Below are positions 17,940-28,104 of a DNA stretch of 50,963 nucleotides, piece after piece. The DNA comes from Flavobacteriaceae bacterium (lineage in GTDB: Bacteria; Bacteroidota; Bacteroidia; Flavobacteriales; Flavobacteriaceae): NCBI GenBank assembly GCA_029268555.1, contig JAQWNN010000003.1, positions 1 to 50,963 on the forward strand. Reading direction: 5' to 3'. The notes below the pieces were generated by a model, which searched no databases, was not told the DNA's origin, and saw nothing but the letters and a program-made list of their open reading frames with translations. A program made the position numbers and the translations under genes. How positions within the stretch are numbered: the first letter of the stretch is position 1; every line of letters starts with the position of its first letter.

Positions 17940-17949
17940 AATAATATAA

Positions 17950-18001
17950 CGAGGAAGGATTTGACTGATTGCAAACCTCGAAAAAAAAATGCTAAAACAG
18001 T
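17950..18001 (+). promoter_or_regulatory. SAM-II-type riboswitch aptamer upstream of metK
   Basis: The segment has the SAM-II layout: stem P1 CGAGG (17950-17954) with CCTCG (17976-17980); the conserved core GATTT (17958-17962), ATTGCAA (17968-17974) and TGCTAAA (17990-17996); and a pseudoknot ACTG (17964-17967) with CAGT (17998-18001). These elements match, from memory, the known SAM-II aptamer pattern in order and spacing. It sits just after a good promoter and about 50 nt before metK, the gene for SAM synthesis, in a methionine operon. Binding of S-adenosylmethionine is therefore expected to lower expression. A covariance-model search was not possible here. Confidence 0.8.
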
Positions 18002-18002
18002 G

Positions 18003-18045
18003 TTGCTTTTCAAAACGCACCGTTTGAATCCTTCCCTAAAAGCAA
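18003..18045 (+). promoter_or_regulatory. Expression platform between riboswitch and metK
   Basis: Two pairings are visible. TTGCTTTT (18003-18010) is exactly complementary to AAAAGCAA (18038-18045), enclosing hairpin CAAAACG/CGTTTG (18011-18026, one bulge) and ending 7 nt before the metK ATG. Separately, AATCCTTCC (18027-18035) is complementary to GGAAGGATT (17953-17961) inside the aptamer. The second pairing excludes the folded aptamer. A switch at the level of translation start is the likely mode; direction is inferred. Confidence 0.5.
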
Positions 18046-18052
18046 TAATTAA

Positions 18053-19309
18053 ATGTCATATTTTTTTACTTCAGAATCAGTAAGTGAAGGTCACCCCGAT
18101 AAAATTGCAGATCAGATTAGTGACGCGTTATTAGATAACTTTCTTGCATTTGACCCTAAGAGCAAAGTAGCCTGTGAAACCATGGTAACTACAGGTCAAG
18201 TAATTTTAGCAGGGGAGGTTAAGAGTTCAACCTACTTGGATGTTCAATCCATTGCCCGAGAAACAATTAATACCATTGGTTACACAAAAGGAGCTTATCA
18301 ATTTAGTGGAGATTCTTGTGGGGTAATTTCTCTGATTCATGAACAATCTCAGGACATTAATAGAGGTGTTGATCGTCAAGAAAAAGAATCACAAGGGGCA
18401 GGTGATCAGGGAATCATGTTTGGTTATGCGTGTAAAGAAACGGAGAATTACATTCCTTTAGCATTGGACCTTTCTCACAAAATCTTAATTGAACTTGCTG
18501 TTTTGAGAAGAGAAAATAACGACATCACCTATTTACGACCTGATGCAAAATCTCAAGTTACTATAGAATATAATGATGAAAATAAAGCACTGAGAATTGA
18601 CACTATAGTCATATCCACTCAACATGACGATTTTGAAACTGACGAAATCAAGATGTTAGATATAATTAAATCTGATATCATTTCAGTTCTTATTCCACGT
18701 TTATTGGAGAAATGCGAACCTCATGTTCAAAAATTATTTGGATCTGATATTACCTATCATATAAATCCTACAGGAAAATTTGTAATTGGAGGACCACATG
18801 GGGATACTGGATTGACGGGGAGAAAGATTATTGTTGACACCTATGGTGGTAAAGGAGGTCATGGAGGAGGTGCTTTTAGCGGAAAAGACCCAAGTAAGGT
18901 TGATCGAAGTGCTGCTTATGCATCAAGGCATATGGCAAAAAACCTTGTTGCAGCAGGAGTAGCTGATGAAATACTGGTTCAACTGAGTTATGCCATAGGA
19001 GTAATTGAACCTACCTCAGTTTACATCAATACTTATGGAACAGCAAATGTGAAATTAACCGATCAACAAATTGCTAAAAAAGCAAGATTATTATTCGATT
19101 TACGTCCCTATGCTGTAGAACAACGTTTGAAACTTAGAAATCCAATGTATTTAGAAACCGCCTCCTACGGGCATATGGGGCGTATGCCTCGAACTATAAC
19201 CAAAACGTTTGAATCCCCGTATAACGGAAAAGTATCGAAGAAAGTAGAGCTTTTCACCTGGGAACAATTAGATTATATAACAAAAATTAAAAAATCATTT
19301 CAATTATGA
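18053..19309 (+). CDS. metK: S-adenosylmethionine synthetase
   Basis: A 418-residue enzyme that makes SAM from methionine and ATP. Signatures are [22 protein letters not shown] (in part [15 protein letters not shown], about 8-25), [12 protein letters not shown] (about 116-127) and the glycine-rich loop [21 protein letters not shown] (in part [17 protein letters not shown]). It is longer than E. coli MetK (384) because of additional sequence in the middle, as in other Bacteroidota. First gene of a four-gene methionine operon behind the riboswitch; its stop overlaps metY as ATGA. Confidence 0.97.
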
Positions 19310-23853: not shown

Positions 23854-23976
23854 TTTAAATCAGTAAGAATATTCTTATTTGATCAAGTTTAGAAGGAGTA
23901 AGATAGTTTTTTTCGACTCAAATTTTAGTTGTGGGCCTGTTTTATGGCTAAAACAGCAAAAAAAACAGTGAAGTGT

Positions 23977-24006
23977 TTGTTTTTTTAAAAAGCAATGCTA
24001 AATTTG
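23977..24006 (+). promoter_or_regulatory. Promoter of the aromatic amino acid operon
   Basis: TTG at 23977-23979 and TAAATTTG at 23999-24006 are separated by 19 bp, an exact flavobacterial consensus. Transcription would start near 24012-24014, about 10 nt before the leader-peptide ATG. The rest of 23854-23976 shows nothing else that I can support. Confidence 0.72.
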
Positions 24007-24021
24007 TAATTATTACAAGAC

Positions 24022-24093
24022 ATGAAATACAATTTATCTTATTACAATGCATTCTACTACTTCTACTTAGAAGCGGGACGGACTTTGTATTAA
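24022..24093 (+). CDS. Phe/Tyr leader peptide (attenuator)
   Basis: A 23-codon open frame from ATG 24022 to TAA 24091-24093 begins MKYNLSYYNAFYYFYLE. Nine of 23 residues are aromatic (7 Tyr, 2 Phe), and codons 7-15 hold seven of them. It lies between a strong promoter and an intrinsic terminator, directly before pheA, tyrA and DAHP synthase genes. This is the classic pattern of a leader peptide that senses charged tRNA: ribosomes stall at Tyr/Phe codons when these amino acids are scarce. The peptide itself needs no function. It is too short for gene finders. Confidence 0.85.
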   Translation: MKYNLSYYNAFYYFYLEAGRTLY

Positions 24094-24121
24094 TATTATT
24101 ACAACATAAATAAAAGAGTCC
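24080..24121 (+). promoter_or_regulatory. Antiterminator pairing within the attenuator
   Basis: GGACTTT (24080-24086, in leader codons 20-22) can pair with AAGAGTCC (24114-24121), which includes the 5' arm of the terminator, through GGACT/AGTCC plus a G-T and an A-T pair. The two structures exclude each other. A ribosome stalled at the Tyr/Phe codons (up to 24066) leaves this arm free; a ribosome at the stop codon (24091) covers it. Confidence 0.6.
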
Positions 24122-24144
24122 TGATTTTTCGGGACTTTTTTTTT
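24112..24144 (+). terminator. Intrinsic terminator of the Phe/Tyr attenuator
   Basis: AGTCCTGA (24117-24124) pairs with TCGGGACT (24129-24136) around loop TTTT (one G-T pair); preceding A residues can extend the stem. A run of nine T (24136-24144) follows. It ends 7 nt before the pheA ATG at 24152, so it must be bypassed for the operon to be expressed. Confidence 0.88.
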
Positions 24145-24151
24145 GAATTCA

Positions 24152-24985
24152 ATGGAAAAGAAACAAAAAATAGCCATTCAAGGAAACCAAGGATCGTTTC
24201 ACCACGTTGTCGCTAACCAGTACTTCACAAGTGAGTTTTCACTGATAGCATGTCATACCTTTGAGGATACGGTGATGTCCTTATTAAATAATGTTGCTGA
24301 TTTAGCAGTGATGGCTTTAGAAAACTCCATTGCTGGATCTATAATTCCCAATTATGCTTTAATCGACCAAAACGAATTGCAAATTGTAGGCGAATACAGT
24401 TTGAGTATCAACCACCAATTGATGGCACTACCTGGACAAAAGATTGAAGACATCAAAGAAGTGCATTCACACCCTATGGCCTTATTACAGTGTAAAGACT
24501 TTTTCCATCAACATCCTAATATTCGTTTAGTAGAGGCAGAGGATACTGCTGATGAAGCACGAAGAATTGATGCAAATCAACTTCAGGGAATAGGAGCTAT
24601 TGCGAGTCAAGAGGCTGCCCATATTTATGGCATGGAAGTTCTGGCTTCCTCAATTCAAACAATAAAAAATAATGTCACTCGATTTGCTATCATTCAAAGT
24701 TTGGGAAAATTGATTCCTCAGGAATTCATCAACAAGGCAGCTTTAAAATTTATTTTAGATCACCAACGTGGAAGCTTGGCAGCGGTGCTTAATGTCATGA
24801 GTGATTGTCAGTTAAATTTGACCAAAATTCAATCTCTTCCTGTTATTCAAACACCGGGTAAATATGCATTTTTTGTCGATGTCACTTTTGATAATTTTAC
24901 CCATTATGAAAAGGCTAGAAAATTGATTGCTATTATGGCCTCTGAATTTAAAATTTTGGGCGAATACACCAAACATCAAAGATGA
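24152..24985 (+). CDS. pheA: Prephenate dehydratase
   Basis: The enzyme converts prephenate to phenylpyruvate for phenylalanine. IAIQGNQGSFHHVVANQYF is the usual PDT start; ALENSIAGSI holds the conserved ENS-type block; NNVTRFAII contains the catalytic TRF motif. The C-terminal ACT domain (about 197-278; GSLAAVLNVMSDCQLNLTKIQSLP) should bind Phe for feedback inhibition. It has no chorismate mutase part. ATG at 24152 is chosen over an in-frame TTG at 24143 because the TTG lies inside the terminator T-run. The stop overlaps the next gene by ATGA. Confidence 0.95.
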   Translation: MEKKQKIAIQGNQGSFHHVVANQYFTSEFSLIACHTFEDTVMSLLNNVADLAVMALENSIAGSIIPNYALIDQNELQIVGEYSLSINHQLMALPGQKIEDIKEVHSHPMALLQCKDFFHQHPNIRLVEAEDTADEARRIDANQLQGIGAIASQEAAHIYGMEVLASSIQTIKNNVTRFAIIQSLGKLIPQEFINKAALKFILDHQRGSLAAVLNVMSDCQLNLTKIQSLPVIQTPGKYAFFVDVTFDNFTHYEKARKLIAIMASEFKILGEYTKHQR

Positions 24986-26130
24986 AGCAAACAGCAAAAC
25001 GTTTAGATAGTGTCCAGGAGTATTACTTTTCAAAAAAGTTGAGAGAAGTATCACAGCGAATTCAAATGGGTCAACCCATCATTAATATGGGGATTGGGAG
25101 CCCAGACTTACCAGCTCACCCTTCAGTTATTGACGCTTTACAAAACGCATTATCTCATCCCAAAGCACATATGTATCAAAGTTATCAGGGTCTTCCTGAG
25201 TTGCGACAGGGGATAAGTAATTTTTATAAAACACATTACCAAGTAGAGTTGGATTATAATTCTGAAGTGCTTCCTCTTATGGGATCAAAAGAAGGAATTA
25301 TGCATATTTCTATGGCATTCCTCAATCCTAGAGATCAGGTTTTGATTCCCAATCCAGGTTATCCAACCTATGCTTCTGTAACCCGACTAATGGAAGCTGA
25401 ACCAATTTTTTATCCACTTTCAGAAAGAAACAATTGGCAGCCTGATTTTGCATTACTTAATGATTTAGATACTTCTAAAGTAAAAATTATGTGGGTGAAC
25501 TACCCCCATATGCCTACGGGGACTGATGTAGATGTCGATACGTTTGATCGTTTAATAATATGGGCAAAAGAACGAGAGGTTCTATTAGTAAATGACAATC
25601 CATATAGTTTTCTTTTGACCGAAAGACCTCAAAGTATTTTATCACGTCCAGGTTCTAAAGAGGTGGCCTTAGAGCTAAACTCTTTGAGTAAGTCGTTCAA
25701 CATGGCGGGCTGGCGTGTAGGGATGCTAAGTGGAAAAGCATCCACCATTAAAGCGGTTCTAAAAGTAAAAAGTAATATGGATTCTGGAATGTTTTTTGGA
25801 ATTCAACAGGGAGGAATTGCTGCTCTAAAAATGGAAACTTCTTGGTTTTCAGAATTGAATAAAGTCTACCTTAGGCGAAGGGCTTTAGTTGAAAAGTTAG
25901 CTACCCGATTAGGAGCAAAATTTGAGCCCAATAGTGTAGGGCTTTTTGTTTGGGCTAAACTACCTGAAGAGGTTTCGGACTCAGAATCCTTTGTTGATAA
26001 AATATTAAATAACAAGCATGTATTCATTACTCCAGGGACGATTTTTGGAAGTCGTGGTGAAGGCTACATTCGATTTTCACTTTGTGTAAACGAGCATACT
26101 ATAGAAGAAGTTTTAAAAAGATTTGAATGA
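24982..26130 (+). CDS. Class I/II aminotransferase, probably aromatic
   Basis: A 382-residue fold-type I PLP enzyme. MGIGSPDLPAHPSVIDAL (36-53) is the class I start region; the usual NYPNNPTG motif is here NYPHMPTG (about 173-180); SLSKSFNMAGWRVGM (about 232-246) holds the Schiff-base Lys; the Arg in GYIRFSLC near the end binds the carboxylate. Its place between pheA and tyrA, overlapping both by 4 bp, argues that it transaminates phenylpyruvate and 4-hydroxyphenylpyruvate to Phe and Tyr. Specificity is inferred from context. Confidence 0.9.
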   Translation: MKQTAKRLDSVQEYYFSKKLREVSQRIQMGQPIINMGIGSPDLPAHPSVIDALQNALSHPKAHMYQSYQGLPELRQGISNFYKTHYQVELDYNSEVLPLMGSKEGIMHISMAFLNPRDQVLIPNPGYPTYASVTRLMEAEPIFYPLSERNNWQPDFALLNDLDTSKVKIMWVNYPHMPTGTDVDVDTFDRLIIWAKEREVLLVNDNPYSFLLTERPQSILSRPGSKEVALELNSLSKSFNMAGWRVGMLSGKASTIKAVLKVKSNMDSGMFFGIQQGGIAALKMETSWFSELNKVYLRRRALVEKLATRLGAKFEPNSVGLFVWAKLPEEVSDSESFVDKILNNKHVFITPGTIFGSRGEGYIRFSLCVNEHTIEEVLKRFE

Positions 26131-26996
26131 TTAATATAGGAGTTATAGGTTTAGGATTGATTGGAGGTTCTTTTGCTTTAGCAGCAAAAAAACACTTTGT
26201 AGATGCTGTACTTTTTGGTGGGGATAAAAATACAAACCATATTAAAGAAGCAATCAAAAAAGATATTATTGAATTCGAGTTAAAGACTAATATTTTAGTA
26301 AAAATGGAAGTATTGATATTAGCTATACCAGTTGACGCAGCTTCAGGGTTAGTTCTAGATTTATTGGATAAGATGAACGATAATGCGCTTCTATTTGACG
26401 TAGGTTCTACCAAATCTTCAATTTGCAAAACGGTAGCTTTACATCCAAAAAGAAATCAATTTTTAGCAACACACCCTATAGCTGGAACCGAGTTCTCAGG
26501 TCCTCTAGCTGCTTTTTCAGATTTGTATGTAAATAAAACACAGATCCTTTGTGAATCAGAAAAAACACGTCCCGATTTATTAGAATGGGCAATTCAATTT
26601 TTCCGATTTATGGATATGAACATACAAGAAATGAATCCACAAGAACACGATCAACATATCGCTTATGTTTCCCACATTTCTCACATATCCTCTTTTATGT
26701 TGGGTAAAACGGTAATGGAAAAAGAAGAAGACGAAAGAGCAATTTTTGACATGGCAGGCAGTGGATTTGCTTCCACGGTTCGATTGGCTAAAAGTTCTCC
26801 CGAAATGTGGACTCCCATTTTTGAGCAGAATAATGAAAATATTTTGGAGGTACTTAGAGAGTATATCTCAAATTTAGAACAATTTAAATCTCTTTTAGAA
26901 AATAAAGATTGGTCCAAAATGCAAGACCAAATGAAAGAGATCAACTCGATAAAAACAATTTTGGAAGGCATTCCACAATCAAACAATATTAACTAA
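26127..26996 (+). CDS. tyrA: Prephenate dehydrogenase
   Basis: A 289-residue NAD(P)-dependent enzyme that converts prephenate to 4-hydroxyphenylpyruvate for tyrosine. The Rossmann motif is GVIGLGLIGGSFA (4-16); FDVGSTKSSI (about 90-99), ATHPIAGTEFSGP (about 114-126; His ligand) and SHISHISSFML (catalytic region) follow. It has no ACT or mutase domain. Start overlaps the aminotransferase stop (ATGA), so the three genes are coupled. Confidence 0.95.
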   Translation: MINIGVIGLGLIGGSFALAAKKHFVDAVLFGGDKNTNHIKEAIKKDIIEFELKTNILVKMEVLILAIPVDAASGLVLDLLDKMNDNALLFDVGSTKSSICKTVALHPKRNQFLATHPIAGTEFSGPLAAFSDLYVNKTQILCESEKTRPDLLEWAIQFFRFMDMNIQEMNPQEHDQHIAYVSHISHISSFMLGKTVMEKEEDERAIFDMAGSGFASTVRLAKSSPEMWTPIFEQNNENILEVLREYISNLEQFKSLLENKDWSKMQDQMKEINSIKTILEGIPQSNNIN

Positions 26997-27021: not shown

Positions 27022-28104
27022 ATGGAAAATAACAAAAAAATGCGCCAATGGCTTGATGATTTTGGATTAGATCATCCTTTGGTAATAGGAGGTCCTTGTA
27101 GTGCTGAGACCGAACAACAAGTTCTAAAAATCGCTCATGAACTTAAAAATACAGATGTTACAGTATACCGTGCGGGAATATGGAAGCCTAGAACACGCCC
27201 TGGTATGTTTGAAGGAGTAGGTGCAATTGGACTTGGTTGGTTAAAAAAAGTGAAAGAAGAAACCGGTTTGTTTACAGCAACTGAAGTTGCCAACAAAGAT
27301 CATGTAAAATTAGCGTTGGAAAATGATGTGGATATTCTTTGGATAGGTGCACGTTCTACAGTAAGCCCTTTCATTATGCAAGAAATAGCAGATGCTTTAG
27401 AGGGCACTAATAAAATTGTAATGGTAAAAAATCCTGTAAATCCAGATTTGGCACTTTGGCTAGGGGGTGTGGAACGACTTTATTCTGCAAATATCAAAAA
27501 ACTAGGTTTAATTCATCGTGGTTTTTCTACTTATGAAAAAACTAAATACCGTAATATTCCAGAATGGCAAATTGCTATTGAGGTTAAGAATAGATTTCCT
27601 GATTTACCTATGATTTGTGATCCATCACATATTGCTGGTAGAAGAGATTTAATTTTTGATATTTCGCAAGCTGCTTTAGATCTTAATTTTGATGGACTTA
27701 TGATAGAGACACATTGGGATCCAGAAAATGCTTGGAGTGATGCTGCTCAGCAAGTAACTCCTAAACGTTTAATAGAAATTATGCGTGATTTAACAGTTCG
27801 TAAAAAGACCACCAATGAGGAAGCATATCAATATGAATTGAATAACCTAAGAGCACAGATTGATATTGTTGACCAGACTTTATTAGATAATTTAGGCAAG
27901 AGAATGAGCGTAGCTGTTGAAATTGGAGCTCTTAAAAAATCAAATAATGTAGCAGTTCTTCAGAATAAGAGATGGAACGAAATATTGGGTAAGATGATTT
28001 TAGAGGGTCAAGAACGTCAACTTTCAGAGGAGTTTATTCTCAGGGTTTTTAAGGCAATACATCAAGAATCGATTAACAAACAAGAAAAAATACTCAACGC
28101 ATAA
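27022..28104 (+). CDS. aroG: Bifunctional DAHP synthase / chorismate mutase
   Basis: A 360-residue fusion. Residues about 1-260 are a KDPG-like class I DAHP synthase (GGPCSAETEQQV 19-30; AGIWKPRTRPGMFEG 51-65; CDPSHIAGRRD about 204-214), which condenses PEP and erythrose-4-phosphate. Residues about 270-355 are an AroQ chorismate mutase domain (LNNLRAQIDIVDQTLLDNLGKRM, in part RAQIDIVDQTLL). It joins the first step of the pathway to the branch step after chorismate and supplies the mutase missing from PheA and TyrA here. It is 25 bp after tyrA. The name aroG is used for the function. Confidence 0.95.
   Translation: MENNKKMRQWLDDFGLDHPLVIGGPCSAETEQQVLKIAHELKNTDVTVYRAGIWKPRTRPGMFEGVGAIGLGWLKKVKEETGLFTATEVANKDHVKLALENDVDILWIGARSTVSPFIMQEIADALEGTNKIVMVKNPVNPDLALWLGGVERLYSANIKKLGLIHRGFSTYEKTKYRNIPEWQIAIEVKNRFPDLPMICDPSHIAGRRDLIFDISQAALDLNFDGLMIETHWDPENAWSDAAQQVTPKRLIEIMRDLTVRKKTTNEEAYQYELNNLRAQIDIVDQTLLDNLGKRMSVAVEIGALKKSNNVAVLQNKRWNEILGKMILEGQERQLSEEFILRVFKAIHQESINKQEKILNA

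Follow-up and report, generated by a model that had tools for sequence, protein, structure and literature searches.

Leader-peptide attenuation is a textbook mechanism in enteric bacteria. In the trpL and hisL attenuators, a stalled ribosome chooses between an antiterminator and a terminator; the pheL leader, which carries Phe codons only, works with a terminator and an antiterminator placed before pheA. The region upstream of pheA in a Flavobacteriaceae bacterium (assembly GCA_029268555.1, contig JAQWNN010000003.1, positions 1 to 50,963; hereafter the window, i.e., the whole stretch of 50,963 nucleotides that was analysed) resembles the enterobacterial pheL-pheA arrangement, with an aromatic-rich leader peptide, a terminator and a predicted antiterminator directly before pheA. 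It differs from pheL in that Tyr and Phe codons are mixed, in that the genes downstream form a joint Phe/Tyr operon with a DAHP synthase, and in that the predicted antiterminator strand forms part of the final leader codons. The logic of stalled ribosome, antiterminator and terminator would be that of trpL and hisL, applied to other amino acids; this genome also has His- and Trp-rich counterparts.

According to a passage of a 2010 survey (PMC2965389), its authors knew of no demonstrated case other than in Proteobacteria and Actinobacteria until their own one from Firmicutes. sORFs reminiscent of leader peptides are mentioned for Bacteroides thetaiotaomicron in a passage of PMC7366714, and a passage of PMC4833913, in the context of ribosome reinitiation, counts Bacteroidetes among the groups with short leader genes; the same paper cites a comparative analysis of attenuation, dating from 2010, which may cover the Bacteroidetes group concerned. 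The closest report comes from sections of PMC9723704, which describe, for Flavobacterium psychrophilum, a structured 5' element that precedes pheA, occurs in other genera too and has no match in Rfam; separately, they mention “strong clues” for leader-peptide attenuation ahead of amino-acid operons of the same species. The gene is the same, and the Flavobacterium loci considered here (e.g., L048 and L058) share the architecture of the window; in the section on that element there is no leader sequence, no antiterminator and no distribution outside Flavobacteriaceae, and the supplements may hold more. A preliminary description of our locus, made from the sequence alone, had called this kind of leader little described in Bacteroidota, which is right, provided that it is not taken as undescribed, given the pheA element and the attenuation clues in the PMC9723704 sections. 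A literature search, by title, abstract or passages, retrieved no paper describing the antiterminator reported below or its spread. The kind of switch is known; judging from these titles, abstracts and passages, what is new is the switch as a whole, its occurrence in more than a single family, its lean towards Tyr in the genus of the window and the presence of His and Trp leaders alongside it in the genome.

We consider it highly probable that ribosome-mediated transcription attenuation, acting through Tyr and Phe codons, controls the pheA-aminotransferase-tyrA-aroG genes. By sequence and computation, this reading is based on the parts of the switch, on their conservation, on an antiterminator that changes together with the terminator and on a computed switch; from these we infer the stalling of the ribosome, termination in the cell and the response to Tyr or Phe.

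Organization of the pheA leader region

Along positions 23976–24151, a promoter-like site, a frame of 23 codons and a 13-pair hairpin with nine T follow one another, and then comes the pheA start (Table 1). This region was compared across 123 pheA loci, which include a named set consisting of the best 80 of 581 matches; a PheA match was found in 43 of 60 related genomes. Two loci (L045 and L046) are duplicates of L006 and L015, with identical leaders.

Table 1. Features of the pheA leader region and of the downstream genes (window coordinates).
Feature	Position	Strand	Basis
Promoter-like site, TTTG-N19-TAAATTTG	23976..24006	+	Sequence match
Leader peptide ORF, 23 codons, MKYNLSYYNAFYYFYLEAGRTLY*	24022..24093	+	Aromatic-rich leader in 30/30 same-genus loci
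Segment 1, UUAUUACAA, pairing with 24085–24093 at 8/9 positions; possible protector helix	24039..24047	+	RNAalifold, 30 loci
Control codons 7–15 (YYNAFYYFY), proposed stalling region	24040..24066	+	Seven aromatic columns
Segment 2, GGACUUU, in leader codons 20–22; putative antiterminator 5' strand	24080..24086	+	Minimum-energy folds; 87.4% of cells paired, 30 loci
Intrinsic terminator stem-loop (segments 3:4)	24112..24141	+	99.7% of cells paired, 30 loci
Segment 3, AGAGUCC, in the terminator 5' arm; predicted partner of segment 2	24115..24121	+	Minimum-energy folds, cross-locus comparison
Nine-T run of the terminator	24136..24144	+	Eight T invariant over 30 loci, ninth nearly so
pheA, prephenate dehydratase	24152..24985	+	PRK11898, 202.2 bits, E 8.8e-60; below the curated cut-off of 219
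PLP-dependent aminotransferase	24982..26130	+	Family clear; every substrate-specific model below cut-off
tyrA, prephenate dehydrogenase	26127..26996	+	PRK08507, 344.8 bits; above the cut-off of 295
aroG, DAHP synthase with C-terminal chorismate mutase	27022..28104	+	Both models match, below cut-offs

The leader holds nine aromatic codons (seven Tyr and two Phe), seven of which lie in codons 7–15, and its stop codon is at 24091–24093; these counts and coordinates, the promoter match upstream of the leader and the gap of seven bases between the last T and the ATG at 24152 had been given correctly in the preliminary description. The promoter pattern, which we take to be the flavobacterial consensus, would place the start of the RNA at about 24012, just 5' of the leader ORF. 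An exact TTTG-N19-TANNTTTG, with a gap of 19 bases, is present in all 30 same-genus loci (window included); with a looser pattern, promoter-like sites precede the leader in 29 out of 32 loci of the genus and in 42 out of 85 outside it, and were found in 22 of 2340 shuffles. One same-genus locus (L004) has a leader frame cut short at 18 codons.

The pheA, aminotransferase and tyrA frames overlap by a few bases, and aroG starts 25 bases after tyrA. This gene order is kept in 65 of the 72 loci for which 5 kb downstream were present.

An intrinsic terminator stands between the leader ORF and pheA, the first structural gene. Its stem joins 24112–24124 to 24129–24141, and the folding of 24105–24144 (−16.1 kcal/mol, z −5.69) was equalled by none of 200 shuffles; the hairpin with nine T previously placed at 24117–24144 is real, that range being the G+C core of this longer stem. 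In the same-genus loci the stem ends 7–17 nt before the matched pheA start, a position from which the hairpin might mainly block ribosome binding at pheA and be opened by a ribosome stalled on the leader, so that translation, rather than transcription, would be attenuated. The eight invariant and the ninth, nearly invariant T after the stem, which would serve termination, argue against this, as does the distance of about 100 nt between the stem and the matched pheA start in some other Flavobacteriaceae (105 nt in L062, 108 nt in L090); control of translation appears improbable to us.

Leader codons and predicted competing base pairings

Of the 33 leaders of the genus, 25 have 22 codons; in these, 168 of the 175 cells in seven columns encode an aromatic residue, and the mean entropies of codon positions 1, 2 and 3 are 0.40, 0.56 and 0.86, respectively, the third being the most variable. 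Pairwise codon differences at the aromatic columns are synonymous in 486 cases versus 320 that are not, with most of the latter stemming from single deviating sequences and the pairs not being independent. We read the leader frame as probably translated into protein.

The leaders of the genus (35, two duplicates included) hold on average 5.1 Tyr and 3.3 Phe, with Tyr exceeding Phe in 24, whereas the 85 leaders outside it average 3.2 Tyr and 5.4 Phe, with Tyr prevailing in 10. The term “Tyr-dominated”, proposed from the single sequence, is therefore suited to the genus and not to the other leaders, which are mostly Phe-dominated. The leader codons match the products of the operon, and the natural reading is that a mixed leader would respond to a shortage of either amino acid, both being products of the operon and both being fed by the DAHP synthase at its end.

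A Trp codon is often found near the start of the aromatic run in Maribacter, Allomuricauda, Tenacibaculum, Winogradskyella and others (L045–L124), and the 85 leaders outside the genus contain 43 Trp in total. This codon may add the sensing of Trp, which is also fed by DAHP synthase.

The attenuation reading of the preliminary description had named no antiterminator; a candidate was found in the end of the leader, which is complementary to the terminator 5' arm and, as predicted from sequence, would form a structure exclusive with the terminator. The GGACUUU:AGAGUCC pairing appears in the minimum-energy folds of both 24022–24130 and 24076–24130, folds that are not unusually stable in the window (65 and 27 out of 200 shuffles, respectively, were as good).

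The comparison among taxa was more informative. In 118 loci, 78 distinct antiterminator stems were counted, with a median of eight pairs; examples are AGGACUUU/AAAGUCCU, CGAGAC/GUCUCG, AGGAUUGU/ACAAUCCU, GAGCGGUC/GACCGCUC and AGCGGGA/UCCCGCU, and 10 loci (L005, L006, L079, L088, L093, L112, L113, L114, L118, and L123) have no more than 4–5 ungapped pairs. The terminator 5' arm can match either the 3' arm or the end of the leader, and the three sequences vary together across taxa, the related loci of this comparison not being independent. When leader ends and terminator arms were exchanged among 42 representatives, chosen by the first bases of the arm and some having an identical core, the duplex of each leader end with its own arm averaged −12.85 kcal/mol versus −8.81 (sd 0.39) for the exchanged ones, and none of 10,000 permutations was as good. 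The conserved leader and terminator, together with an antiterminator co-varying with the latter, support the ribosome-mediated attenuation first suggested for this locus.

Within the genus (30 loci), the antiterminator stem has no double-sided changes and performs no better than shuffles, and the terminator stem likewise has no double changes and is equalled by shuffles. Antiterminator covariation is not seen there because the terminator is nearly invariant; the antiterminator draws its support from the cross-taxon comparison. Three same-genus loci (L026–L028) have a slid antiterminator, in which the leader sequence GAUCAGG pairs with CCUGAU(C/U) on the loop side of the terminator 5' arm, replacing the pairing of GGACUUU with the outer part of that arm; L025 is intermediate.

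RNAalifold, unprompted, also joined the YYN codons to the stop-codon region in a possible protector helix, with 86.7% of cells paired. Its covariation is weak: double-change cells are 10 versus 5.2 (0 of 500 shuffles), and pairs having a double change are 3 versus 2.6 (278 of 500 shuffles).

The switch was computed on 120 loci by equilibrium folding of truncated RNA with a single footprint model, kinetics being outside its scope. The mean antiterminator probability is 0.87 with the ribosome on the aromatic codons, 0.41 with the ribosome on the stop codon and 0.73 without ribosome. In 115 loci this model puts the stalled mean higher than the value at the stop; speaking against the simple scheme, 42 loci still have an antiterminator probability of at least 0.5 with the ribosome at the stop codon. 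For the window, the values are 0.69–0.99 in the stalled state and 0.49 at the stop. At 0.73, the computed default of untranslated RNA is antitermination in spite of the proposed protector helix, which sets it apart from trpL and hisL; in the trp attenuator of E. coli, the default of untranslated RNA is different.

According to the proposed mechanism, transcription would begin just upstream of the leader ORF. With ample charged Tyr- and Phe-tRNA, the ribosome would reach the stop codon and cover segment 2, leaving the 5' arm free, so that the terminator forms and RNA polymerase halts before pheA. If charged Tyr- or Phe-tRNA runs short, the ribosome would stall in codons 7–15 and expose segment 2, which would pair with segment 3 before the terminator 3' arm is made; with the antiterminator formed, transcription would proceed into pheA-aminotransferase-tyrA-aroG. 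In this way, the switch very probably turns on the Tyr/Phe genes only when these amino acids are scarce, in the window bacterium and in many of its relatives.

Any sensor could make use of a terminator that competes with an upstream segment, including a ligand- or protein-sensing RNA (riboswitch, T-box or target of an RNA-binding repressor) for which the short ORF has no role. Apart from the terminator, though, conservation extends to the aromatic codons and the terminator-complementary segment, the RNA sequence differing between families, and no Rfam family scores above its gathering threshold at the site; such a sensor seems very unlikely. A riboswitch or T-box was rejected, the sole Rfam match over gathering in the window being SAM-II, located elsewhere. 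Membership in Rfam RF01859 (Phe_leader) was rejected as well: the match at 24021–24144 scores 24.7 bits versus a gathering score of 55, and it is uninformative because nqrA-II reaches 28.8 bits at the same place and the best Phe_leader match in the genome, itself sub-threshold, reaches 32.4 bits elsewhere (contig C40).

Distribution of the leader unit

The leader unit was searched for upstream of pheA with a detector that requires five or more Tyr/Phe within 10 residues of a short ORF and an intrinsic terminator after it. Leader and terminator were retrieved in 120 of the 123 loci (118 of 121 without the duplicates), and the remaining three (L036, L040, and L041) have neither. Promoter pattern, leader and terminator are all present in the first 30 same-genus loci (window included), leader and terminator in each of three further ones, and in 7 out of 10 loci from other families of the same order. 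The loss of the Tyr/Phe-rich ORF in relatives, named in the preliminary description as the outcome that would refute attenuation, was not what these genus-wide and overall counts revealed. The named positives include Flavobacterium, Winogradskyella, Tenacibaculum, Maribacter, Aquimarina and Salegentibacter and, outside Flavobacteriaceae, Carboxylicivirga (L124).

The detector called 4 out of 1000 dinucleotide shuffles of the 326-base stretch and 4 out of 2460 over all 123 loci. Among the regions upstream of ORFs in the 80 named loci, five out of 627 were called, and all five are pheA from a later start; none of the other 622 was called, and these may include a few late pheA starts as well. The idea that the terminator merely damps transcription and that the aromatic ORF is a chance product of A+T-rich DNA, in whose favor the few called shuffles of the stretch could be counted, was rejected on the shuffles and on the other upstream regions and is contradicted by the conservation of the unit across genera, which leaves it a negligible probability. 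No second leader-plus-terminator unit was found on either strand of the window (thresholds of 6 Y/F, 3 W, 4 H or 8 T/I per ten residues).

One genome of the same order (L039) harbors two tandem Phe-rich leader-plus-terminator units, MNNLVSTFRFFGFFFFRKEGAMS* and MNQNTQQNFSFFGFFFFKWKSEAVD*, in the interval between about 280 and 20 bases ahead of pheA; a doubtful third stands further upstream. It is the sole locus of the 123 with more than one unit within the available upstream sequence of up to 900 bases.

In a sample of the phylum, PheA was matched in 128 of 148 genomes, and 49 loci, in which some species of the named set may be repeated, were scanned over 320 or 480 bases upstream of the matched PheA start. 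The unit was called in all 14 loci of the same family, in 13 out of 16 from other families of the class and in 3 out of 19 beyond the class, the last being part of about 95 and chosen mostly by best PheA score. In L138 and L139, both within the class but outside the family, the unit is absent and pheA directly follows another coding frame; L144, from the same group, has, by eye, a leader and a hairpin with just four T, and was not called. The other 16 loci beyond the class are without the unit within the 320–480 bases scanned; several of them have longer frames, so that a leader ahead of a fused domain or at an operon head could have escaped. Their PheA sequences share at most 36% identity with that of the window, and those of the three positives 42–44%; these data suggest that the leader goes with one type of pheA.

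Attenuation appears to be a common means of control of the aromatic operon in Flavobacteriaceae and in other families of the class. We give an even chance to a scenario in which a dual Tyr/Phe attenuator, with an additional Trp codon in many relatives, is ancestral to the class and switches the whole operon; it would have travelled with this type of pheA, keeping its three-way pairing while the hairpins turned over, passing from Phe- to Tyr-dominated in the genus and remaining on by default without a ribosome. If attenuation operates as proposed, it would offer a readable amino-acid sensor for an important group and a large natural set of attenuators in which leader and terminator change together; it would also test whether the coupling of transcription and translation in such bacteria is close enough for attenuation.

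Other leaders in the same genome

Versions for His and Trp were found in the same genome. Upstream of hisG (contig C32; L178, position about 808) lie a His-rich leader, MNKNSTHTHHTNTQSNEM*, and a terminator, with a leader-terminator pairing of −9.9 kcal/mol. A trpE-like gene (contig C30; L179, reverse strand, position about 1467) is preceded by the leader MKFINKNINGWWFTPQK*, with two Trp codons, and by a terminator, the leader-terminator pairing being only −4.3 kcal/mol and obtained with the stretch chosen. No leader unit was found upstream of the aspartokinase/homoserine dehydrogenase gene of this genome.

The window also contains the SAM-II riboswitch mentioned above, at 17945–18005 on the forward strand (75.3 bits versus a gathering score of 44); the gene directly after it, at 18053, presumably resembles a methionine adenosyltransferase gene, and the one at 19306 a sulfhydrylase gene.
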